From: Rhodobium orientis | GTDB taxonomy: Bacteria > Pseudomonadota > Alphaproteobacteria > Rhizobiales > Rhodobiaceae | Direction of reading: 5' to 3' | NCBI RefSeq assembly: GCF_003258835.1 | Contig: NZ_NPEV01000020.1 | Coordinates: 1 to 64,000 of the forward strand | Length of the DNA stretch: 64,000 bases | Shown: in pieces, positions 8,047-63,552 of the stretch | Layout of the letters: each line of letters begins with the position of its first letter | How positions within the stretch are numbered: position 1 is the stretch's first letter | Notes under the pieces: generated by a model | The model's input: only the letters and a program-made list of their open reading frames with translations | What the model was told of the DNA's origin: nothing | The model's database searches: none | Position numbers and translations under genes: made by a program

Positions 8047-8781
8047 CTATTCGCCCGGCTGGCGGTCCATCCGCGCCGCCCAGGCCGCCAGGTGACGCCG
8101 CTCGCGCGGATTGTCGACCTGGTTGCGCGACGGCGAGAAGAAGACGCCGGGCGCATGCAGCAGCTTGGAGAACGGGAAGATGATCATCAAAAGCGCGACC
8201 AGCGTCAGGTGGACGAGGAGCGCCGGGTCGGCCGGCAGCGGCTGCACATCGAAGCGCATCAGGCCGAGGAAGAACGCCTTGACCGCGACGATGTCGGTGC
8301 GGGCGATAAACTTCATGCCGAGGCCGGAGAGCCCGATGGCGACGATCAGCGCCAGCATCAGGTGGTCGGACGGGGCGGAGATGTAGCGCACCCGCGGCAC
8401 CAGGAACCGCCGCGCCCACAGGCCGAGGAGCCCGACGACCATGGCGAAGCCGGCATAGACGCCGAAGGGCTGCACGAACACCACCCAGCTCCAGACCGGC
8501 TCGATGAAGTAGCGCAGGTGACGCAGGATGACGACGGCGAGCGCGACGTGGAACAGCCAGCCGAACAGCCAGATCCACTTGTTGGACTTGAAGAGGCTTT
8601 CGAACAGGACGACCTCGCGGCCCATGCGGAAGATGACGCCGCGCCGCGTCGTCGGCGCCGGCGTCGTCGGGATCTTCAGGGGCGCGGGAACCGTCGCGTA
8701 CTCGTAGATGCGCCAGGCAAGCCCTGCGACCAGCACGATCGTGGCGAAATAGAACAGCAGGGCATAGGCCGTCGTCAGCAC
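8047..8781 (-). CDS. dsrM: DsrM, NarI-like membrane cytochrome b subunit
   Basis: A 244-residue membrane protein with about five hydrophobic helices and conserved histidines in them ('WLFHVALAVVILRHLRYF', 'LLVHLTL'), fitting the two haem b groups of the NarI-like DsrM/HdrE family. It carries electrons between the quinone pool and DsrK. The start is GTG 8781: GGGAGGA ends six bases upstream. The in-frame GTG at 8787 directly abuts that ribosome site, so it is unlikely to be used. It lies about 170 bp after dsrC and 18 bp before dsrK. Confidence 0.93.
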   Translation of the reverse strand: MLTTAYALLFYFATIVLVAGLAWRIYEYATVPAPLKIPTTPAPTTRRGVIFRMGREVVLFESLFKSNKWIWLFGWLFHVALAVVILRHLRYFIEPVWSWVVFVQPFGVYAGFAMVVGLLGLWARRFLVPRVRYISAPSDHLMLALIVAIGLSGLGMKFIARTDIVAVKAFFLGLMRFDVQPLPADPALLVHLTLVALLMIIFPFSKLLHAPGVFFSPSRNQVDNPRERRHLAAWAARMDRQPGE

Positions 8782-8904
8782 GCGCACTCCTCCCAGGCTC
8801 GCTCACGCTCCGCGGCGGCGGAACGGCGATTCGCGTCGTCTCTTCGCATGGGCCTCATCCTGGGTCGTCGGAACCCGTCAGGCCATGCCTTTCTGGTGCC
8901 GGGT

Positions 8905-8925
8905 CCGGCCTTATCGGGCGGCCGG
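8905..8925 (-). promoter_or_regulatory. Intercistronic hairpin between dsrC and dsrM
   Basis: Perfect inverted repeat CCGGCC-N9-GGCCGG in the gap of about 170 bases after dsrC. No T-run follows on the minus strand. A stem-loop right after the small, normally very abundant dsrC message could protect its 3' end or mark processing; this is inference. Nothing else recognisable lies in the gap. Confidence 0.4.
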
Positions 8926-8951
8926 TTACCCTTATCTCGCGCTGTCGTCGA

Positions 8952-9284
8952 TCAGACGCAGCCCGTCGGTTTCGGCAGACCGGCGATCTTACAGGCCTGC
9001 TTGGCCGGGCCGTACGGAAACAGCTCGTAGAGATACTTGTTCGAGGCCTTTTCCGGGCCGTACTTCTTCTTCAGCGCCTTGACGAGCACACGGATGGCCG
9101 GGGCGATCTGGTATTCGTCGTAATACTCCCGGAGGAAGTTGACGACTTCCCAATGCTCGGGCGTCATGTCGATGTTCTCGTCCTTGGCGATGATTTCCGC
9201 CAGGTCGTTCGACCAGACCGAAATGTCGGTCAGGTAGCCCTCTTCGTCGTGCTCGATGGTCGCGCCATTGAGTTGATAGGTCAT
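8952..9284 (-). CDS. dsrC: DsrC, sulfur-carrier protein with two C-terminal cysteines
   Basis: A 110-residue DsrC/TusE-family protein. The flexible C-terminal arm carries both redox cysteines, Cys98 and penultimate Cys109, in the CX10C pattern 'CKIAGLPKPTGCV'. It is therefore a true DsrC, not a TusE-like protein with one cysteine. DsrC receives sulfane sulfur from DsrEFH, presents it to DsrAB and interacts with DsrK. ATG 9284 is preceded by GAGGAG; the longer frame upstream (to 9347) has no family similarity. It is separated from dsrH by 103 bp of relatively AT-rich sequence, which may hold a secondary dsrC promoter, though I find no clear -35/-10 pair. Confidence 0.97.
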   Translation of the reverse strand: MTYQLNGATIEHDEEGYLTDISVWSNDLAEIIAKDENIDMTPEHWEVVNFLREYYDEYQIAPAIRVLVKALKKKYGPEKASNKYLYELFPYGPAKQACKIAGLPKPTGCV

Positions 9285-9387
9285 GGGTGTGCTCCTCTTC
9301 CTTACCCTTTTTCGCTCAAAGCCTTTTATCGCTTCTTGCAACTCCAAGCTTTTACCTTAGCCGGGCTTTATCGCGCCTTGCGAATGA

Positions 9388-9696
9388 TCAAAGCCAGGCC
9401 TGTGTTCTGTCGTGTTCTGCAACCAGATCGACGAAGCCGCCATAGTCGACGACGGTAACCCCGGACACGAGATCGTCCGGCTTGAGGCCGCGGGCGTCCA
9501 GATCGGGCCCGAGCGCGTAAAGCTTGTGGTCGCCGCTGACCGCGTCGAGGTCGCCGGCAAAGGCCGTCGCCTTGCGCAGACCCACCACCCCGTCTTCCAG
9601 GACGAGGACCGCGTCGCCGGCGGCAAGATGCTTCAGGCAACTGCCGAAGGCGGTGCGCTCGAAGGGCGATTTGTTGACCGTATGAAGTGTCGGCAT
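9388..9696 (-). CDS. dsrH: DsrH, sulfurtransferase subunit (TusB-like)
   Basis: A 102-residue TusB/DsrH protein. Cys20 ('FGSCLKHL') matches the conserved DsrH cysteine. Together with DsrE and DsrF it forms the alpha2beta2gamma2 DsrEFH sulfurtransferase that hands sulfane sulfur to DsrC. ATG 9696 has AAGGGAG upstream. The gene follows dsrF after 24 bp, in the invariant E-F-H order. Confidence 0.95.
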   Translation of the reverse strand: MPTLHTVNKSPFERTAFGSCLKHLAAGDAVLVLEDGVVGLRKATAFAGDLDAVSGDHKLYALGPDLDARGLKPDDLVSGVTVVDYGGFVDLVAEHDRTQAWL

Positions 9697-9720
9697 TCTC
9701 TCGATCTCCCTTCCCGCGCC

Positions 9721-10155
9721 TCAGAAACTCAGGACCACGTCCTGGTCGGCCATGACGGCCGCCATCTCGGTGCGGCTGACGATGCGGATCGACGGCTTTT
9801 CGGCCCAGTCGTCGTCCTCGTCCTCATACATGATCTCCATCAGATCGTCTTCGGTAAGGCCGCGCTCGTCGAGGGATTCCTTTTCCACGAACAGCTTGGT
9901 GATCTCGTAGTCGCCAAGCGCCCGGTAGGTCGGCGAGAAGTTCTTCATGCCAATCGCCTTGGTGTCCTGGCCGTCGACGAGCTGGTAGACGCCGTCGTCG
10001 AGGAAGGCGAGGCTGACATCCTGGTCGAAGGCGGCCGAGATCAGCACGACCTCCAGGCTCTCCAGGGCGTAGATCGTGCCATAGGGCGCCTTGCGGTTCA
10101 CATACAGGAACTTCTTGACGACTTCGGTATCGATGGTCTGTTCATCCATGGACAT
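9721..10155 (-). CDS. dsrF: DsrF, sulfurtransferase subunit (TusC-like)
   Basis: A 144-residue TusC/DsrF protein: 'KKFLYVNRKAPYGTIYALES' near the start and 'DVSLAFLDDGVYQLVDGQDT' in the middle are typical. Start ATG 10155 follows GGGAGG with five bases between; a second ATG at 10149 is possible. The upstream open frame overlaps dsrE and is rejected. It is the middle subunit of DsrEFH and lacks an essential catalytic cysteine, as usual for this subunit. It starts 11 bp after dsrE. Confidence 0.94.
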   Translation of the reverse strand: MSMDEQTIDTEVVKKFLYVNRKAPYGTIYALESLEVVLISAAFDQDVSLAFLDDGVYQLVDGQDTKAIGMKNFSPTYRALGDYEITKLFVEKESLDERGLTEDDLMEIMYEDEDDDWAEKPSIRIVSRTEMAAVMADQDVVLSF

Positions 10156-53936: not shown

Positions 53937-55397
53937 TCAAAACGGGGTTTCGGTCGGCGTCATGGCCACGTAGACGCTCTTGACCTGGGAATAGTGCTCG
54001 AGCGCGGCCTTGCCGTTTTCGCGGCCGATGCCGGACTGCTTGACGCCGCCGAAGGGCATCTCGACGGGCGTCAGATTGTAGGTGTTGATCCAGCAGGTGC
54101 CGGCCTGAAGCTCGGCGACGACCCGGTGGGCGCGGGCGAGATCGCGGGTGAAGACACCAGCCGCCAAGCCGAAGGGTGTGGCATTGGCGCGCGCGATCGC
54201 ATCGGCCTCGTCGTCGAAGGTGAGGATGGTCAGGACCGGCCCGAAGATCTCCTCGCTGGCGATGCGCGCCTCATCGGAGCTGGCATCGAACACCGTCGGC
54301 TCGACGTAAAAGCCGCTGTCGAGGCCGGGCCCGGTGGCGCGGCCGCCGCCGATGAGGCACGTCGCCTCGGCTTTGCCGATCTCCATGTAGGAGAGCACCT
54401 TTTCCATGTGGCGCTCGGAGACGAGCGGGCCGATCTGGGTTTCCGGATCGAGCGGATCGCCGAGCTTCAAGGCTTTGGTGCGGGCGATGAGGCGCTCGAT
54501 GAAGGCGTCCTTGACGCTGGAATGGACGTAGACGCGCGTGCCGTTGGAGCAGATCTGGCCGGAGGAATAGAAATTGCCGAGCATCGCCCCGCCGACGGCG
54601 GCATCGAGGTCGGCGTCTTCAAAGACGAGGATCGGCGACTTGCCGCCGAGCTCGAAGGTGACGTGCTTCAGGGTCTTTGCCGCATCGCCCATGATGCGCT
54701 TGCCGGTGCCGACCTCGCCGGTCAGCGAGACCTTGGCGATCTCGGGGTGGGCGACCAGCGCCGCGCCGACCTCGGCCGCGCCCTGTACGACGTTGAAGAC
54801 GCCGGCGGGCAGCCCTGCCTCGGTGAGGATTTCGGCAAGGATCAGCGCCGACAGCGGCGTTTCCTCCGACGGCTTGAAGATCATGGCGTTGCCGCAGGCA
54901 AGCGCCGGGGCCGCCTTCCAGGAGGCGATCTGGACCGGATAGTTCCAGGCGCCGATGCCGGCGACGATGCCGAGCGGTTCGCGGCGCGTGTAGATCCAGT
55001 CGCCGCCGAGGTCGACATAGTCGCCGGACAGGCTGGATGCGATGCCGGCGAAATATTCCAGGCACTCCACGCCGGAGAGCGCATCGGCAACGAGCGTTTC
55101 CTGGATCGGCTTGCCGGTGTCCAGCGTCTCGATGCGGGCGATCTCCTCGTTGCGGGCGCGAAGGAGATCGGCGGCGCGGCGCAGCACCCGCGCGCGCTCC
55201 GCACCCGGCGTCTTCGACCAGACCGCGAAACCGCGCTTCGCCGCCGCGATCGCCGCCTCGATCTCGTCCGGCTGGGCGTGGCGGATCTCAGCGATGACCT
55301 CGCCGGTCGCCGGATAAATGTCCGGCACGGCCAGGCCGGCACCCGGCACATACTCGCCGGCGATGAAGTGGGAGCCTTTGGGTTGGGCGTTCGGCAT
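53937..55397 (-). CDS. betB: Betaine-aldehyde dehydrogenase
   Basis: A 486-residue aldehyde dehydrogenase that makes glycine betaine with NAD(P)+. The catalytic Glu is in '[11 protein letters not shown]' and the catalytic Cys in '[14 protein letters not shown]'. ATG 55397 starts '[17 protein letters not shown]', the normal family start; the longer frame overlaps betI's end. It follows betI by 100 bp and precedes betA, the usual betI-betB-betA order. Confidence 0.95.
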
Positions 55398-55497
55398 CGG
55401 GTGGTCTTTCTTGTCTGTGCGGGCGTTGACCGGAGCGTTCAGGCAGCCGGACAAGCCCCGTGTTCCAATTCCTCCGCGCGCATCGCAACGAAGGTCG

Positions 55498-56100
55498 TCA
55501 ATGCCCTTTGGGTGGCGCTCCGGCGGCGCCGAGCCGGGTTTCGACATAGTCCTCGACGAGGGCGGCGGCGCTTGCCGCGTCGGCGGCGCCTTCGCGCAAC
55601 GCCCGGCGCAGCCAGACGCCGTCGATCATCGCCGCCGTGCCCTCGGCCGCCAGCGCCGCATCGGCGCGCGGCAGCAGCCGGGCATAGGCGTCGACAAGGT
55701 TCGAATTCAGCCGGTGGGCGTAGATCCGCAAAAGCTGGCGCGCCTCGGCGGAGGCCTGGGCATGCACATAAAAGGCGAGCCAGGCGGAGATCACCTCCGG
55801 GCGGAACTGCTCGGGCGTGAAATTGCCGGCGATGATCGCGGTGAGGCGGTCGCGCGGATCGCGCGCCTCGCGCAGGCGTTCGGCGACCCGGCGCGACAGG
55901 CCCTTCAACAGGTAGCGCATGGTGGCAACCAGGAGGCCGTCCTTGTTGCCGAAATAGTGGTGCGCGAGGCCCGACGAGACGCCGGCCCGGCGCGCGATCT
56001 GGCCGACCGTGACGTCGAGCGAGCCATGGGCGTGGATCTCGTCGATGGCGGCCGCGATCAGTTCCTTGCGGCGGATCGGCTCCATTCCGACCTTGGGCAT
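55498..56100 (-). CDS. betI: BetI, choline-responsive TetR-family repressor
   Basis: A 200-residue TetR protein with the HTH at about 25-48 ('[24 protein letters not shown]'), strongly BetI-like, and a helical ligand domain. It represses bet genes until choline is present. Divergent from betC; a perfect palindrome lies between them. It ends in a Pro/Gly-rich '[10 protein letters not shown]' tail. Confidence 0.94.
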
Positions 56101-56142
56101 CTTTTGTCTCCGCTCTCGGGTCTCCTCCCGGCCATCTTATTT

Positions 56143-56162
56143 TTGATTGACGCGTCAATCAA
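56143..56162. promoter_or_regulatory. BetI operator
   Basis: Perfect 20-bp palindrome with half-site TTGATTGACG, 43 bp from betI and 103 bp from betC. It has the TTGA...TCAA character of known BetI sites and is placed to control both directions. Confidence 0.75.
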
Positions 56163-56264
56163 TAAAAACCTACGGTGATTTCGGAGCCCGCCCGTGCGAC
56201 ATTTCCGGCTCGAGAATCTCACCCGAACCGCGACGCCGCATCGGCGTCGGGAAGGAACAGTCAA

Positions 56265-57800
56265 ATGGCCCACGGCCGCCGTCCCAATATCCTGATGATC
56301 ATGGCCGACCAGCTCACCCCGTCGGCGCTCGGGGCCTATGGGCACCCCATCGTCCGAAGCCCGAACATCGACCGGCTGGCAGCCGAGGGCGTCACCTTCG
56401 AGTCGGCCTATTGCAACAATCCGCTCTGCGCGCCGTCGCGTTTCACCATGCTCGCCGGACTGCATTCCTCAAGGATCGGCGCCTACGACAACGCCTCCTA
56501 CTTCCCGTCGAACCAGCTCACCTTCGTGCATGTGCTGCGTGCCGCCGGCTACCGCACGGCGCTGGCGGGCAAGATGCATTTCATCGGCGCCGACCAGACG
56601 CACGGCTTCGAGGAGCGGCTGACGACGGACATCTATCCCGGCGATTTCGGCTGGGTGGCCAATTGGGACCAGGCCGAGGAGCGCATCGACTGGTGGTACC
56701 ACAACATGTCGAGCGTGACGGAAGCGGGGGTTGCCGAAGTCACCAACCAGCTCGATTTCGACGACGAGACCGGCTTCCACGCCGTGCGGGAGATCCGCGA
56801 CCTCGCCCGGGCCGAGGACGGACGGCCGTTCTTCCTGTGCGTCTCGTTCACCCATCCGCACGATCCCTACACGACGCGGCAGGAGTTCTGGGACCTCTAT
56901 GAGGGCGTCGACATCGACCTGCCGCGGGTGCCGGAGCCGGAGCGGACGTTGCTCGACCCGCACAGCCGGCGGCTGATGGAAGCCCTCGACCGGGACGCGG
57001 CAACGATCACCGAAGCGGAGATCAAGCGGGCACGGCGCGCCTATTACGGCAACATCTCCTATGTCGACCAGTGGGTCGGCCGCATCCGCCAGACCCTGCA
57101 GGCCTGCGGCCTTGCCGACGACACCATCATCCTTTTTACCGGCGACCACGGCGACATGCTCGGCGAGCGCGGGCTCTGGTACAAGATGAGCTTCTTCGAG
57201 AACGCCGCGCGGGTGCCGATGATCGTCCACGCGCCGCAGCATTTCGGCCCGAGGCGGGTGTCGCAGAACGTCTCCCTCGTCGACCTGGCGCCGACGCTGA
57301 TGACGCTCACCGACAGCGCGCCGGAGGATTTCGAGCCGGGCTTCGACGGCCGCGACCTCACCCCGCTGATCGCCGGCGATGCGGACGAAGACGAGGACAC
57401 CGTCTTCGGCGAGTTCTTCGGCGAGGGCGCTGTCGCCCCGCTCGTCATGATCCGGCGCGGCAATTACAAATACATCGCCTGCCCGGCCGACCCGCCGCAG
57501 CTCTTTGATCTGTCCGTTGACCCGGACGAGCTCACCAATCTGTGCGGCAATCCGGAGGTGGCGGAGACGGAAGCGGCGTTTGCGGCCGAGGTCTCGGAAC
57601 GCTGGGATTTCGAGGCCCTGCAACAGGCCGTTCTTGCCGACCAGCGCAACCGGCGCTTCATCGACAAGGCGCTTCGGACCGGCAAGTTCCAGCCCTGGGA
57701 CTACCAGCCGAAAACGGAGGCCCACGAGCAGTACATGCGCAACCATCTCGACCTCAACGAGGTCGAATGGCACAGCCGTTTTCCGCGCCCGGCAAAATAA
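56265..57800 (+). CDS. betC: Choline sulfatase
   Basis: A 511-residue type I sulfatase that hydrolyses choline-O-sulfate to choline and sulfate. The formylglycine cysteine is Cys55 in the signature 'CAPSR' ('NNPLCAPSRFTML'). Metal ligands include 'MADQ' near the start and 'FTGDHGDMLGERGLW'. The typical choline-sulfatase C-terminus ('PWDYQP', 'YMRNHLDLNEVE') is present. ATG 56265 follows GGGAAGGAAC. First of betC-choX-choW-choV on plus, divergent from betI. Confidence 0.95.
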   Translation: MAHGRRPNILMIMADQLTPSALGAYGHPIVRSPNIDRLAAEGVTFESAYCNNPLCAPSRFTMLAGLHSSRIGAYDNASYFPSNQLTFVHVLRAAGYRTALAGKMHFIGADQTHGFEERLTTDIYPGDFGWVANWDQAEERIDWWYHNMSSVTEAGVAEVTNQLDFDDETGFHAVREIRDLARAEDGRPFFLCVSFTHPHDPYTTRQEFWDLYEGVDIDLPRVPEPERTLLDPHSRRLMEALDRDAATITEAEIKRARRAYYGNISYVDQWVGRIRQTLQACGLADDTIILFTGDHGDMLGERGLWYKMSFFENAARVPMIVHAPQHFGPRRVSQNVSLVDLAPTLMTLTDSAPEDFEPGFDGRDLTPLIAGDADEDEDTVFGEFFGEGAVAPLVMIRRGNYKYIACPADPPQLFDLSVDPDELTNLCGNPEVAETEAAFAAEVSERWDFEALQQAVLADQRNRRFIDKALRTGKFQPWDYQPKTEAHEQYMRNHLDLNEVEWHSRFPRPAK

Positions 57801-57899
57801 GCCCCGCGCGCCCGCTTGATCCCTGCCGGCTTGGGTGCTTCCATGTGGCCAACCAAACGGCCGCACGGCCCATTCACCCAGAAAGAGCAGGGAAACGTC

Positions 57900-58859
57900 A
57901 TGGCACACACTGTCACGAAGGTCCTCGGCGGCGCACTCGCCGCCGCCCTTATCTCCTTTTCCGCCATTTCCGCCGGGGGGGCGGCGGAGCCGGAAAGCTG
58001 CAAGACCGTCAACTTCTCCGACGTCGGCTGGACCGACATCACCTCCACGACGGCGGCGACCTCGGCGGTACTGTCCGCCATCGGCTACGAGCCGGAGACC
58101 AAGCTGCTGTCGGTGCCGGTCACCTATCGCTCGCTGAAGAACGGCGACATCGACATTTTCCTCGGCAACTGGATGCCGACCATGGAAGGCGACATCAAGC
58201 CTTACCGCGAGGACGGCTCGGTGGAGACCCTTCGGGCCAATCTGGAAGGCGCGAAATACACCCTCGCGGTTCCGAAATACACCTATGACAAGGGCCTGAA
58301 GAGCTTTGAGGACATCGCCAAGTTCAAGGACGACCTCGACGGCAAGATCTACGGCATCGAGCCCGGTAATGACGGCAACCGGCTGATCCTGACCATGATC
58401 GAGAAGGACACCTTCGGCCTGAAGGATTTCGAGCTGGTGGAATCGTCCGAGGCCGGCATGCTCTCCCAGGTCGCGCGCGACGTGAAGAAGAAGGTCGATA
58501 TCGTCTTCCTCGGCTGGGAGCCGCATCCGATGAACGCCAACTACGACATGGCGTACCTGTCCGGCGGCGACGACGTCTTCGGCCCGGACTATGGCGGTGC
58601 GACGGTCTACACGAACGTGCGCAAGGGCTACACCGAGGAATGCCCGAACCTCGGCACGTTCCTGGGCAATCTGGAATTCTCGCTGGCCATGGAAAACGAG
58701 ATCATGGGCGCGATCCTCAATGACGGCGCGGAGGCGGACGCCGCCGCCAAGGCCTGGCTGAAGCAGCATCCGGACGTCGTGGAAGGCTGGCTCGAAGGCG
58801 TCACGACCTTTGGCGGCGACGACGCCATGGCCGCGGCCAAGGAAGAACTCGGCCTGTAA
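57900..58859 (+). CDS. choX: ChoX, choline ABC transporter substrate-binding protein
   Basis: A 319-residue periplasmic binding protein of the OpuAC/ProX type with a signal peptide (cut near 'SAGGAAEP'). 'SDVGWTDITSTTAATSAVL', 'DIFLGNWMPTME' and 'VFLGWEPHPMNANYDM' form the aromatic choline box known from Sinorhizobium ChoX. It delivers choline to ChoWV. A hairpin with T-run follows, probably reducing transcription into choW so that the binding protein is in excess. Confidence 0.94.
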   Translation: MAHTVTKVLGGALAAALISFSAISAGGAAEPESCKTVNFSDVGWTDITSTTAATSAVLSAIGYEPETKLLSVPVTYRSLKNGDIDIFLGNWMPTMEGDIKPYREDGSVETLRANLEGAKYTLAVPKYTYDKGLKSFEDIAKFKDDLDGKIYGIEPGNDGNRLILTMIEKDTFGLKDFELVESSEAGMLSQVARDVKKKVDIVFLGWEPHPMNANYDMAYLSGGDDVFGPDYGGATVYTNVRKGYTEECPNLGTFLGNLEFSLAMENEIMGAILNDGAEADAAAKAWLKQHPDVVEGWLEGVTTFGGDDAMAAAKEELGL

Positions 58860-58879
58860 GCGAGCCAGCCAATCGACGA

Positions 58880-58903
58880 GGGCGGCCGGACGGCCGCCCT
58901 TTT
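58880..58903 (+). terminator. Partial terminator between choX and choW
   Basis: GGGCGGCC-GGAC-GGCCGCCC followed by TTTT. An 8-bp GC-rich stem; likely attenuates rather than ends the cho transcript since choW follows 79 bp on. Confidence 0.7.
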
Positions 58904-58981
58904 CTCTTTCCGGAGATCGCACGGTTGGAATTTCGAAGAATCCGAATCGTGCAAAATCCCTTTTTCGTGGTCTGAACGGCA

Positions 58982-59830
58982 ATGGACTGGCTAACCGAGA
59001 CCAAGATCCCGCTCGGCAAATGGGTCGAGGCCGGCGTCGAGGCCTTCAATGTCTGGGCGTCGGGGTTTCTGGACGCCGTTTCCGAAACGCTGCAGACCCT
59101 GATCGAGGGCCTCACCGACGGCATGGCGGCGGTGCCGCCCGTGGTCCTCGTGCTCGTTTTCGCCGCCCTTGCCGGCTATCTGAAGAAGAGCTGGAAGCTG
59201 GCGCTCGGCGTCGTTCTCGGCCTCTTCCTGATCATCAATATGGGCTACTGGGACGAGACGCTGGAAACGCTCGCCCTCGTCGTCTTCGCCACCTTCGTGT
59301 GCATGGTCATCGGCGTCCCGATCGGCATTGCGGCCGCCCATCGGCCCTGGCTGGAGGCTATCCTCAGGCCGGTCCTCGACCTGATGCAGACTCTGCCGAC
59401 CTTCGCCTATCTCATCCCGACGCTGATCCTCTTCGGTCTCGGCGTCGTGCCGGGCCTGATCTCCACCGTGATCTTCGCCATTCCGGCACCGATCCGGCTC
59501 ACCACCCTCGGCATCAAGTCGACGCCCAATGCGCTCGTCGAGGCGGGCAAAGCCTTCGGCTGCACGAAAAACCAGCTTCTCTTCAAGGTCGAGCTGCCGT
59601 CGGCGATGCCGACGATCATGGCCGGTCTCACCCAGTGCATCATGCTGTCGCTGTCGATGGTCGTGATTGCGGCGCTGGTCGGCGCCGACGGGCTCGGCGA
59701 GCCGGTGCTGCGCGCGCTCAACACCGTCAACATCGCCAAAGGGTTCGAATCCGGCCTTGCCATCGTCATCGTCGCCATCCTGCTCGACCGGGTGTTCCGG
59801 CGGGCCGAGCCGCCGTCGGAGCAGCGGTGA
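58982..59830 (+). CDS. choW: ChoW, choline ABC transporter permease
   Basis: A 282-residue OpuAB/ProW-type permease with about six helices and the EAA loop 'EAGKAFGCTKNQLLFKVELPSAMPTIMAG'-type region near residue 180. It forms the channel of the choline importer. ATG 58982; choV starts 4 bp after its stop. Confidence 0.94.
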   Translation: MDWLTETKIPLGKWVEAGVEAFNVWASGFLDAVSETLQTLIEGLTDGMAAVPPVVLVLVFAALAGYLKKSWKLALGVVLGLFLIINMGYWDETLETLALVVFATFVCMVIGVPIGIAAAHRPWLEAILRPVLDLMQTLPTFAYLIPTLILFGLGVVPGLISTVIFAIPAPIRLTTLGIKSTPNALVEAGKAFGCTKNQLLFKVELPSAMPTIMAGLTQCIMLSLSMVVIAALVGADGLGEPVLRALNTVNIAKGFESGLAIVIVAILLDRVFRRAEPPSEQR

Positions 59831-59834
59831 GGCG

Positions 59835-60707
59835 ATGACCGACACCTCCCCCCTCCCCGCCTCGGAAGCCACATCTGGCACCGAAGACGCGATCCGCTTC
59901 GAGGCCGTCGACATCGTCTTCGGCGACGACCCGAAGGAGGCGCTGCCGCTGATCGATGCCGGCCAGGAGCGCAGCCAGATCCTGGAAGAGACCGGACTGG
60001 TGCTCGGCTGCGCCGGCGCCAGCCTCTCCGTCAGGCGCGGCGAGATCTGCGTCCTGATGGGACTTTCCGGCTCCGGCAAGTCGACCCTGATGCGCGCCGT
60101 CAACGGCCTGACGGAGGTCGCCCGCGGCAGGGTGCTGGTCAACACCGGAAGGGAGATGGTCGACGTCGTCACCTGCGGCCAGTCGATGCTGCGCACGATC
60201 CGGCGCAAGCACTGCGCCATGGTGTTCCAGCAATTCGCGCTGCTGCCCTGGCGCACGGTGAAGGAAAACGTCGCCTTCGGCCTGGAGGTGCGCGGCGAGG
60301 ACGCGGCCCGCATCGACGAGATCGTGACGGAAAAGCTGGCAACCGTCGGGCTTTCCGAATGGGCCGACAAATACGGCCACGAGCTTTCCGGCGGCATGCA
60401 GCAGCGCGTCGGGCTCGCCCGGGCGCTCGCCACCGACGCCGACATCCTCCTGATGGACGAGCCGTTCTCCGCGCTCGACCCGCTGATCCGCTCGCGCCTG
60501 CAGGACGAACTCATCGAACTGCAGGCCCGGCTCGACAAGACCGTCCTCTTCGTCTCCCACGACCTGACGGAAGCGGCCAAGATCGGCCGGCACATCGCCA
60601 TCATGGAGGGCGGGCGGATCGTCCAGCACGGCACGCCGGACGATATCGTCGACAACCCGGCGGACGACTATGTCGCCGAGTTCGTCGCCCATATGCGCGG
60701 CGGGTAA
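59835..60707 (+). CDS. choV: ChoV, choline ABC transporter ATPase
   Basis: A 290-residue ABC ATPase of the ProV/OpuAA group: Walker A 'GLSGSGKSTLMRAVN', signature 'LSGGMQQRVGLARAL', Walker B 'ILLMDEPFSALDP'. It lacks the C-terminal CBS pair seen in longer ProV proteins, as ChoV does. ATG 59835 is chosen at the family start; the frame is open upstream within choW but is not coding. Confidence 0.94.
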   Translation: MTDTSPLPASEATSGTEDAIRFEAVDIVFGDDPKEALPLIDAGQERSQILEETGLVLGCAGASLSVRRGEICVLMGLSGSGKSTLMRAVNGLTEVARGRVLVNTGREMVDVVTCGQSMLRTIRRKHCAMVFQQFALLPWRTVKENVAFGLEVRGEDAARIDEIVTEKLATVGLSEWADKYGHELSGGMQQRVGLARALATDADILLMDEPFSALDPLIRSRLQDELIELQARLDKTVLFVSHDLTEAAKIGRHIAIMEGGRIVQHGTPDDIVDNPADDYVAEFVAHMRGG

Positions 60708-60769
60708 GCGGCGGGCCCGCCAGCGGAACAATCCATCGTCTTAGTCGTTTGCCTAACGCAGGATGCGTC

Positions 60770-60794
60770 CGGCCGCGATGTCACGCGGCCGTTT
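60770..60794 (+). terminator. Possible terminator after choV
   Basis: CGGCCGCG-ATGTCA-CGCGGCCG followed by TTT, 62 bp past the choV stop. Strong stem, short T-run. Confidence 0.5.
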
Positions 60795-60879
60795 GCCTGC
60801 CGACTTCGACAGCCCATATGCACCGGGCGCCTTCTGACCGCCCGTGCCCATCCCTTTGAAGAGCCGTCACACGAGACCC

Positions 60880-61878
60880 ATGAAACCGTTTTCCCAGAAG
60901 ATGCCTCCGCGCACGACAAATCCGGACGGCGCGACCCGCCGCGTCGGCGTGGAACTGGAATTTGCCGCCGTCTCCGCACGCGACGGATCGCAGCAGGTGC
61001 AGAGCCTTTTCGGCGGCACCGTCGAGGAGGAGGACCCGCACCGCTTCCACATCCGCGGCACCGAACTCGGCGATTTCGTCTGCGAGCTCGACACCCAATA
61101 CGCCCACCGGCCGCTGAAGCCGGAAGCCGGCAGGATCGGCGGCGGGCTGCGCGAGGCCTTTGCCGACTTCGACGCGCGGCTGCGCTCGCTGATCGGCGAC
61201 GTCAGCTCGATCCTGGTGCCCTGTGAGGTGGTCTGCCCGCCGGTCCCGATCGACGAGATCGGCAAGCTGGAGCGGCTGGTGCAGGCGCTGCGCGAGGCCG
61301 GCGCGGAAGGCACCCGGTCCAATCCGCTCTATGCCTTCGGCGCCCAGCTCAACCCGGAGATCGCCGAGGACAGCGGCGAATGGATCACCTCGGTCCTGAA
61401 GGCCTATCTGCTGTTGTCGGAATGGCTGCGCGAGATCATGTCGATCGACCCGACCCGGCGCATCGCCTCCTTCGCCGATCCCTTCCCGAACCCTTACGTC
61501 CTCAGCGTCGTCGACCCGGACTACTGGCCGGGCCGGGAGCGGCTGATCGAGGATTACCTGCATGCCAACCCGACCCGCAACCGCGAACTCGACATGCTGC
61601 CGCTGTTCGCCTTTTTCGATGAGGAGAAGGTGAAGGCGCTGGCCCCCGATCCGCTGATCAAGAAGCGGCCGACCTTTCACTATCGTCTGCCCGATGCCCG
61701 CTTTTCCGAGGCGGACTGGGGCGTGACGCTGGAATGGAACCGCTGGTGCGTGGTTGAGGAGCTTGCCGCGGATCGGGCGAAGCTCGACGCCATGGGCCGG
61801 GCCTACCGGGCCAACCGCGAGCAGTGGATCTCGGAGAACTGGGCCATTCGCGCCAGCGAGTGGCTGCTTGTCTCATGA
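60880..61878 (+). CDS. Amidoligase-family protein (COOH-NH2 ligase type)
   Basis: A 332-residue protein of the amidoligase family (PF12224-like), which joins carboxyl and amino groups with ATP. 'RRVGVELEFAAVS' near residue 20 is the glutamine-synthetase-like ExE metal/ATP signature. 'FVCELDTQYAHRP' and 'LYAFGAQLNPEI' are further conserved blocks, and 'NRWCVVEELAADR' is near the end. The start at ATG 60880 is uncertain since the ribosome site is weak and a GTG at 60844 is in frame. Its stop overlaps the next gene's start (ATGA). Substrate unknown. Confidence 0.8.
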   Translation: MKPFSQKMPPRTTNPDGATRRVGVELEFAAVSARDGSQQVQSLFGGTVEEEDPHRFHIRGTELGDFVCELDTQYAHRPLKPEAGRIGGGLREAFADFDARLRSLIGDVSSILVPCEVVCPPVPIDEIGKLERLVQALREAGAEGTRSNPLYAFGAQLNPEIAEDSGEWITSVLKAYLLLSEWLREIMSIDPTRRIASFADPFPNPYVLSVVDPDYWPGRERLIEDYLHANPTRNRELDMLPLFAFFDEEKVKALAPDPLIKKRPTFHYRLPDARFSEADWGVTLEWNRWCVVEELAADRAKLDAMGRAYRANREQWISENWAIRASEWLLVS

Positions 61879-62576
61879 GGCTGCGCAAGGCGAAAACGAC
61901 GCCATGCATCGGCGTCACCACCTCGGCCGGGGGCGGGCGCTACATGTGGTGGTTCTATTTCCTGTCGCTGAGGCTCTACGGGGTCCGGCCGGTACGGCTG
62001 ATCGCGCCGATCGACGATGTCGATATCTCCAGCTTCGACGGGCTGATCATTGGCGGCGGTGACAATATCGGCGCCGGGCTCTACCAGGGCGACCTTACCC
62101 TCGACATCAACATCGATCCGGCGCGCGACGCCATGGAGCTGCGGCTGCTTGACCTTGCGGCGCGCTGCAAGGTGCCGGTGCTCGGGGTCTGCCGCGGCGC
62201 CCAGCTCCTCAACGTCTTTCGCGGCGGCTCGCTGCACCAGGACCTGCACAAGAGCTACGACGACGTCCCGCATATGTGGACGCCGCTGCCGAAGAAATAC
62301 GTGACCATCGAGGCCGGCTCGAAACTCGCCGGCTTCCTCGGCCGCGCGCGCTTCAAGGCCAACAGCCTGCACCGCCAGGCGATCGACCGGCTCGGCGAGG
62401 GCATGGAGGTCTCCGCCCGCGACGAATACGGCATCGTCCAGGGCATCGAGGACCCCAAGGCACGCTTCCTCATCGGCGTCCAGTGGCACCCGGAATTCCT
62501 CATCTACCGAGCCTCGCAAAGGCACCTGTTCCGGGCGTTCCTCAACGCGGCGGAGGCCTATTGCGCGGAGCGGTAG
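61875..62576 (+). CDS. Class-I glutamine-amidotransferase / gamma-glutamyl hydrolase-like protein
   Basis: A 233-residue peptidase_C26-type protein. The nucleophile is Cys in 'VLGVCRGAQLLNVF' and the His-Glu pair is 'GVQWHPEFL'. These enzymes hydrolyse gamma-glutamyl amide bonds (for example gamma-glutamyl-GABA, PuuD-like). It is translationally coupled to the amidoligase gene, so a linked ligase/hydrolase pathway on a shared gamma-glutamyl-type conjugate is likely; the compound is unknown. Confidence 0.88.
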   Translation: MRLRKAKTTPCIGVTTSAGGGRYMWWFYFLSLRLYGVRPVRLIAPIDDVDISSFDGLIIGGGDNIGAGLYQGDLTLDINIDPARDAMELRLLDLAARCKVPVLGVCRGAQLLNVFRGGSLHQDLHKSYDDVPHMWTPLPKKYVTIEAGSKLAGFLGRARFKANSLHRQAIDRLGEGMEVSARDEYGIVQGIEDPKARFLIGVQWHPEFLIYRASQRHLFRAFLNAAEAYCAER

Positions 62577-62580
62577 TTCC

Positions 62581-63552
62581 TCAATACCACACCCCGGTCA
62601 TGCGCCGTCTCGGCCGGCGGGTGACGGGGATGAAGGATTTTCCGACGACGACCGGGGCGTCGAGGGCGGCAAAGACCGGGTCGCGGGCCGGCTGCAGGGT
62701 TTTCAGACGGGCGACCCGATCCTCGGTCCGCGGGTGCGAGCGCAGCAGCGAGGGGTCGGGCAGGCGGTTTCCCGGCAGCACCATGCTCTCCCAGCGGCGG
62801 CCATGGGCGCGTTCCAGCTTGACGAGGGCCGAGGCAAGGCCCTCCGGGTCGCCGGTCAACTCGGCGGCGTCGAGGTCGGCGTCGTATTCGCGGGCGCGCG
62901 ACAGGGCGAGCTGCATCAGCCCGCCGATGGTCGGGGCGGCGAGCAGGATCAGGATGCCGAGCCAGGGCACGGTGCCGCTGCCGGCAAGGATCGCCGGCAG
63001 GTTCAGGGCCAGCACGATCATGCCGAAGGTGGAGAGCACGCCGGTCATGCGCGCGACGATATCGGCGAGCGCCATCACCTTGATGTCGCCGTTGCGGACA
63101 TGGCTGACCTCGTGGGCGACGACGGCGGCGAATTCGCGTGAAGAGAGGCCCCGGATCAGCCCGTCGGTGACGCAGACGACGGCGTCCTCGGGCCGGCCGA
63201 CAGCAAAGGCGTTCATCATCCGGCTCGGCACGTAGTAGAGCTTCGGCACGCGCGGCAGGCCGGCACGCTCGGCGATCAGCGCCAGCACCCGGTGGCCCTC
63301 CTCGAACACGTGCTCGGGCAGCTCGCGCGCCCGGTACATGCGCAGCACCAGCTCCGGCGAGGCGCGGGTGGCAAAGAAGAGGCCGAGGCCGCCGCCGATC
63401 AGCGCAAAGAGGATGCCGTCAGGCCCCATGACGATGACGACGCACAGCACCAGAAGCGCCAGGCTGCCCGCGGCGAGCAGCCAGGTGTGGAGCGTGTTGC
63501 GGAATTTATGGCGACGTTGGAGGTCGTCGCTCAGCGATAAAAACCCTGTCAT
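62581..63552 (-). CDS. M48 (HtpX-like) membrane zinc protease
   Basis: A 323-residue M48 peptidase. Two N-terminal helices (about 22-60) are followed by the zinc site 'AAVVAHEVSHVRNGD' (HExxH), another hydrophobic hairpin and the third ligand 'REYDADLDAAEL'. It probably degrades damaged membrane proteins like HtpX. It ends 4 bp from the facing amidotransferase gene. The C-terminal tail 'RRPRRRMTGVWY' is basic. Confidence 0.9.
   Translation of the reverse strand: MTGFLSLSDDLQRRHKFRNTLHTWLLAAGSLALLVLCVVIVMGPDGILFALIGGGLGLFFATRASPELVLRMYRARELPEHVFEEGHRVLALIAERAGLPRVPKLYYVPSRMMNAFAVGRPEDAVVCVTDGLIRGLSSREFAAVVAHEVSHVRNGDIKVMALADIVARMTGVLSTFGMIVLALNLPAILAGSGTVPWLGILILLAAPTIGGLMQLALSRAREYDADLDAAELTGDPEGLASALVKLERAHGRRWESMVLPGNRLPDPSLLRSHPRTEDRVARLKTLQPARDPVFAALDAPVVVGKSFIPVTRRPRRRMTGVWY

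Follow-up and report, generated by a model that had tools for sequence, protein, structure and literature searches.

In the pathway of the PuuA/PuuD or Pseudomonas SpuA type, a ligase with the fold of glutamine synthetase (GS) couples gamma-glutamate to an amine, from which a hydrolase of the C26 family removes it again. Pairs that join an amidoligase to a peptidase or to a glutamine amidotransferase (GATase) were reportedly predicted in 2009 by Iyer, Abhiman, Burroughs and Aravind, who would have priority for the idea; these pairs reportedly have the same type of ligase as the locus described here, and ligation is coupled to hydrolysis in them too. That study is cited in PMC10580990 and PMC12239564. 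RimK/RimB (PMC12239564) and RloC/RloA oppose an ATP-dependent glutamate ligase to a dedicated hydrolase, and cassettes of phages phiEco32, PSA-HP1 and the OM43 phages carry amidoligase, GATase and ATP-grasp genes for which a role in cell-wall modification was suggested. In the OM43 phages, an amidoligase of family PF12224 is encoded with a GATase of family PF13522.

We analysed a window of 64,000 nucleotides of Rhodobium orientis (contig NZ_NPEV01000020.1, positions 1 to 64,000), where a first-pass annotation had described an ATP-dependent amidoligase and a Cys-His-Glu amidohydrolase overlapping by ATGA. Both open reading frames, both Pfam families and the triad were confirmed. The first gene (60880-61878, plus strand, 332 aa) belongs to the family Amidoligase_2 (PF12224; 171.9 bits against a cut-off of 22, residues 19-290) and is the only amidoligase match in the genome; its product is predicted to be an ATP-dependent carboxylate-amine ligase. 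It has a GxExEF motif, GVELEF (60946-60963, plus strand), whose residues E25 and E27 are invariant in an alignment of 66 rows and are likely the metal-binding pair, and a conserved signature, RPTFHYR (61666-61686, plus strand), whose R263, H267 and R269 are invariant in the same rows. The AlphaFold2 model made from this alignment (pLDDT 92.0, pTM 0.89) predicts a GS-like fold: in VIA-align 211 of its residues superpose on the glutamine synthetase 5dm3_C at 3.6 A with Z 12.3, and the 50 entries listed, at Z 11.0-12.3, are all GS or GS-like in this comparison drawn from Foldseek's top 1000 chains only. Foldseek by itself gave no significant match for the fold, the best being YbdK (E 0.015), with glutamine synthetase and then plant glutamate-cysteine ligase as weak matches below it. 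The alignment by hhalign to 14 GlnA homologues was not significant overall, its sole aligned block, which places the GVELEF motif on GPEAEF of GlnA, also lacked significance, and a sequence search of the PDB returned no credible relative (E 0.14 or worse). Use of ATP and amide chemistry are what the family and the predicted fold would imply for this protein.

The second gene (61875-62576, plus strand, 233 aa) encodes a Peptidase_C26 protein (PF07722; 145.3 bits against a cut-off of 20.5) that also matches the class-I GATase family PF00117 (E 6e-14), and it is one of five C26-profile matches in the genome. The codon of the catalytic Cys106 lies at 62190-62192, in GVCRGAQ, and those of His205-Pro-Glu207 at 62487-62495, in QWHPE, both on the plus strand. 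An alignment of 19 sequences, that of the window among them, has C106, H205 and E207 without exception; in the larger alignment of 57 rows C106 and the C-R-G-x-Q motif are invariant, and H205, E207 and the H-P-E motif are at least 90% conserved. The AlphaFold2 model built from these 57 rows (pLDDT 94.7, pTM 0.91) finds SpuA, Lin1909 (3fij) and E. coli PuuD (6vtv) at E 1.6e-22 to 3e-18 in Foldseek, with SpuA 7d53/7d50 on top (E 1.6e-22) and SpuA 7d4r also among the nearest; glutamine amidotransferases rank behind them (E 1e-13 or weaker). The same three proteins lead the sequence search, in which the SpuA structure entry bears the title 'probable glutamine amidotransferase'. These nearest structures predict that the hydrolase, a member of a subfamily associated with the pair, cuts a gamma-glutamyl amide. 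Its structural neighbours thus liken the locus to PuuA/PuuD, but the ligase belongs to PF12224 and had no match to PF00120, the family of GlnA and PuuA, in the Pfam search, and the hydrolase reaches 74.9 bits against the PuuD equivalog NF008471, below its cut-off of 266.

The comparison with the other described systems also gives likenesses and differences. Like the phage cassettes, the window encodes an amidoligase together with a protein of the GATase superfamily, but its partner is a C26 protein and that of the OM43 phages is a PF13522 GATase. Among phage protein families, the hydrolase has a match to the glutamine amidotransferases of phrog_7218 (E 2e-20). Despite this match we rejected a viral origin or a phage cassette, because no relative of the ligase was confirmed in IMG/VR and none was found in 50,697 phage records or among the PHROGs. 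A defence system was likewise set aside, as neither protein had a match in PADLOC. The logic of ligase versus hydrolase is shared with RimK/RimB and RloC/RloA, yet those systems use an ATP-grasp ligase and an aspartic (retropepsin-like) protease, whereas the window combines PF12224 with PF07722.

The two genes overlap by the stop-start sequence ATGA (61875-61878, plus strand), with both frames open. Four-base overlaps of this kind (ATGA, GTGA or TTGA) occur in 57 of 108 pairs from the pooled loci described below, and none of the 120 pooled loci has a fusion of the ligase with the C26. The overlap suggests that the two proteins are produced jointly. A scan of 60600-62750 gave no promoter-like site and one terminator-like site, where 0.9 would be expected. 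Both genes are under purifying selection in a comparison with a genome of the same genus, with Ka/Ks of 0.055/0.386 (~0.14) for the ligase and 0.036/0.233 (~0.15) for the hydrolase. Over 36 lineages the distances of ligases and hydrolases are correlated (Mantel r 0.58, shuffled maximum 0.37), a value uncorrected for species phylogeny.

The amidoligase-C26 pair is a real, widespread unit. PF12224 has a patchy distribution, present in 2 of 3 genomes of the family, 20 of 289 of the class and 26 of 397 of the phylum (window's own included), and the class and phylum surveys each contain one match (L026, L128) that falls outside the profile of the window's ligase type. Directly downstream of ligases of the window's type there is a C26 gene in 18 of 19 loci of the class survey and 23 of 25 of the phylum survey. 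We pooled the best 80 of 568 confirmed loci, 39 further loci and the window, leaving out L168 because it does not match the ligase profile; some genomes of the sets of 80 and 39 may be of the same species. In these 120 loci the C26 follows directly in 108. Single linkage at 60% ligase identity sorts the loci into 40 lineages, and the C26 follows in 36 of them: 34 have it in every member and 2 in only part of their members, while 4 lack it throughout. The first-pass annotation had proposed that the ligase and the hydrolase are coupled, with a product yet to be identified, and had named separation of the genes in most relatives as evidence against it; the family matches and this recurrent adjacency support its proposal.

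The remaining 12 of the 120 loci have an amidoligase with no adjacent C26. Nine come from the set of 80, with Filomicrobium and Rhodospirillales MAGs among them, and the genomes of the other three (L145, L166 and L167) contain no C26 of the pair's strength, the best scoring 154 bits. Relatives of the ligase were also found in 11 plasmid records; of six that were inspected, three have both genes and the other three only the amidoligase. In Dinoroseobacter shibae DFL 12 the pair is on plasmid pDSHI02, and Halomonas elongata (L070) is another laboratory species with the pair. Together the loci without an adjacent C26 indicate that the ligase can occur without this hydrolase. The solo plasmid ligases, which have no C26 with them (L284 of Rhodovastum atsumiense, L285 and L288), have genes for MobF, IS66, a recombinase or a metallophosphoesterase nearby, and one of them adjoins MobF and IS66 genes. 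This setting suggests that the ligase alone may be mobile. In L110 and L152 (G524) the C26 partner is split in two by an internal stop, so the hydrolase there may be broken or mis-sequenced.

One hydrolase subfamily goes with the pair. In the 289 genomes of the class, the top 18 C26 scores (264-334 bits) are precisely the 18 beside an amidoligase, followed by G249 at 235 bits and the rest at 187 or less, and in the 397 genomes of the phylum 24 C26s reach 215 bits, 23 beside an amidoligase and one (G510) at a contig end with its neighbour out of view; in both rankings the scores are raised by a profile that includes many of the partners it finds. A profile of 19 C26s from the class and family surveys gave 211-320 bits to 19 partners from the phylum survey (L001, L014, L017 and L018 are left out, as they are part of the profile), against 109-185 for 11 other C26s. 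The C26 of G584, which has no amidoligase alongside, scored 170 bits (part match) in the phylum search and 216 with the other profile; from the latter score it also belongs near the subfamily. In a tree that leaves out the PuuD-like row of the window's own genome, 10 near-duplicate or truncated partner rows and two fragments (24 and 35 aa), the subfamily, with 47 amidoligase partners and two cases with ATP-grasp, stands apart from eight other C26s with support 100/100. A different C26 subfamily, at about 170-187 bits to the pair profiles, was seen at 11 class-survey loci (L188-L198), in all of which it directly precedes a gene like those for S4-domain pseudouridine synthases, usually with an RsmD-like gene too (names read from sequence).

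The two cases with ATP-grasp show that the partner of this hydrolase can change. G249 is not among the class-survey genomes with a PF12224 match, and its C26 gene (L209, 7896-8618, minus strand) comes immediately after an ATP-grasp gene (8622-9938, minus strand). Genome G661 belongs to the family of G249; in it, an ATP-grasp gene whose product is 44% identical to that of G249 abuts a C26 scoring 299 bits, which nests among the amidoligase partners (enclosing clade 99/95; sister L142, 95/84); the C26 of G249 is a long branch of unsure placement. A third member of their family, G017, has the amidoligase form. Because the same C26 subfamily stands behind an unrelated ATP-grasp ligase, and the C26 of G661 lies inside a clade paired with amidoligases, the ligase is exchangeable: the GS-fold amidoligase can be replaced by an ATP-grasp ligase, as judged at the C26 loci of these two genomes. 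The exchange is rare (one of 289 class genomes, plus G661 from a search of 17 genomes of its family); G249, G661 and G584 were the three cases of this C26 without an adjacent PF12224 gene whose context could be read. That the ligase can be swapped is easier to reconcile with a metabolite that the enzymes share than with a fixed complex of proteins.

We therefore favour, with a probability of roughly 55%, the reading that the two genes form an autonomous make-and-break module, in which one enzyme builds and the other cuts a gamma-glutamyl-type amide, a small molecule shared by both. The GS-fold ligase would join a carboxylate to an amine at the expense of ATP; the donor would most likely be the gamma-carboxyl of glutamate, our one reason being the resemblance of the hydrolase to enzymes of the SpuA/PuuD type. 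The C26 hydrolase would cleave the resulting amide through a cysteine thioester, and both enzymes would act on one small molecule that diffuses freely, in the manner of PuuA and PuuD in the catabolism of polyamines. An amine could in this way be masked, stored or processed and released afterwards. In this scheme the use of ATP, the glutamate donor, the direction of flux and the shared substrate are what we infer from families, folds and gene order. Weighing against this reading are the amidoligases that lack an adjacent C26, the C26 of G584 that lacks an amidoligase, the want of a conserved third gene to use or export the product, and the non-significant results of Foldseek and hhalign for the ligase fold. 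We know of no activity for any member of such pairs, and the open-licence literature yielded no functional study of the pair or of PF12224. The earlier suggestion of an undescribed pathway consequently holds for the product; it does not hold for the class of the pair, already predicted in 2009, and the families and the general idea are known.

The recurrent overlap also fits another arrangement, in which the C26 would be the glutaminase subunit of a glutamine-dependent amidotransferase and feed ammonia to a GS-fold synthetase that amidates a carboxylate. Genes overlapping 1:1 are typical of two-subunit enzymes, the hydrolase belongs to the class-I GATase superfamily, and its conserved C-R-G-x-Q and H-P-E motifs agree with this role. 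We nevertheless consider it rather unlikely, since the structures nearest to the hydrolase are hydrolases rather than amidotransferase subunits, and since a complex that channels ammonia is hard to square with the presence of this C26 clade after an unrelated ATP-grasp ligase. The solo amidoligases also speak against it, though GS-fold enzymes can use free ammonia. The amidotransferase predicts an effect of hydrolase loss opposite to that expected from a make-and-break module.

The neighbourhoods of the pair could point to its substrate, and a survey for a third partner had been proposed with the first-pass annotation. It revealed no universal one: across the 40 lineages, neither the clustering of neighbours nor a count of Pfam families gave a third gene conserved for use or export of the product. 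After the ligase and the C26, the widest neighbour clusters are a PAS-type sensor-like one, seen in 9 lineages and lying within 2 kb in 3 of them, and an ABC-ATPase-like one, seen in 7 and lying within 2 kb in 1; both are named from their sequences. For the Pfam count, neighbour genes were called by a GC-frame rule of our own, which lost betC and choX of the window to an antisense frame, so the neighbours are approximate and some are spurious. No gene for a Puu-type oxidase recurs beside the pair in the 40 lineages, and the scanned neighbourhood of the window's pair contains no oxidase or aldehyde dehydrogenase beyond the betB of a choline cluster. An aldehyde dehydrogenase gene lies upstream of the pair, on the same strand, in only three Rhodobacterales-type loci (L031, L032 and the plasmid locus L283), the only Puu-like context that we saw.

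Among 141 neighbour proteins (17 of the 158 called were left out, 16 of at least 700 aa and one being the C26 itself), the most frequent of the 145 families counted was VTT_dom with 4; Peptidase_M48 and Aminotran_1_2 came next, each with 3. Our attention had been drawn to VTT before this systematic count. The link of this VTT-domain membrane protein to the pair is suggestive. Its genes are in operon-like contact downstream of the pair in L040, L138 and L159 and upstream in L140, and in G584 the C26 that lacks an amidoligase overlaps a VTT gene. Twenty genomes (~80.7 Mb) gave 84 VTT matches, about 4.2 each, at which rate a chance contact is rare; by a hand estimate ~0.15 would be expected among the 141 neighbours. 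TrpE-like and SurA-like genes apparently also flank the pair in both L040 and L138, so the contacts amount to ~3 independent events in 40 lineages. We found no paper linking an amidoligase to DedA/VTT in the open-licence literature, in a narrow search that could miss such papers.

These contacts argue for a reversible glutamylation or amino-acylation of a target in the membrane, the envelope or a protein instead of a free metabolite; in some lineages, VTT proteins would move or serve the component so modified. We hold this to be unlikely: most lineages have no VTT neighbour, the independent events are few, and the family stood out before the count and among many counted. Moreover, C26 enzymes of known function act on small gamma-glutamyl amides. 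RimK/RimB, which acts on the ribosomal protein RpsF, is a precedent for ligase-protease pairs with such a target (PMC12239564). A bolder extension, improbable in our view, would see a ligase-agnostic module in which the C26 subfamily works with GS-fold or ATP-grasp ligases to modify an amine-bearing membrane or envelope component handled or flipped by VTT proteins, as an unrecognised reversible amino-acylation system in Pseudomonadota.

Other neighbours were seen in fewer or narrower groups. In 3 of 40 lineages the pair adjoins a gene for an M48 peptidase (window 62581-63552, L092 6911-7858 and L153 6269-7132), which converges with the pair in the window and shares its strand in L092 and L153; this may be chance. 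In Halomonadaceae (L083 and L084, for example), a gene for a large membrane protein resembling a mechanosensitive channel of the MscS type runs opposite to the amidoligase gene and in most cases immediately upstream of it; 38 of 81 loci have it. The recurrent neighbours in that family, an MscS-like channel and OsmC-like and Tpx-like proteins (read from sequences), are not among the listed cross-lineage clusters and probably reflect family synteny. Several hosts are halophiles by name, which prompted, as a conjecture only, the idea of an osmolyte.

In the window the pair follows genes of choline metabolism, and the first-pass annotation had raised from this position the possibility of an amino-compound conjugate. 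The cluster at 53937-60707 (betB-betI / betC-choX-choW-choV) is of ordinary make-up for choline-sulfate uptake and oxidation, and the pair lies on the same strand as betC-choXWV, 172 bp past choV. At the loci tested, choline genes occur beside the pair only in the window's genus. With flanks of up to 8 kb for 80 loci and ~1.5 kb for the remainder, choX, betC, betI and betA had no match outside the window's own loci (106 loci, 101 with a ligase match), and good matches to choW and choV, which also precede the pair there, were found only in the same-genus locus L007 (genome G001). The other matches to choV are ABC ATPases at 28-41% and those to betB are aldehyde dehydrogenases at 29-39%, in L031, L032 and L068. 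As the third genome of the genus, G002, has no amidoligase, and gene context outside the genus disfavours a choline conjugate, we regard a role of the pair in the metabolism of choline or glycine betaine as very improbable.

Overall, most members of PF12224 in the genomes sampled are in a two-gene unit with a hydrolase, in 18 of 20 cases in the class and 23 of 26 in the phylum. Because this hydrolase is close to enzymes of known specificity, the type of bond that the pair handles can be predicted from it. The swap of a GS-fold for an ATP-grasp ligase before the same hydrolase subfamily suggests that what the members of this system share may be a product, rather than a protein complex.
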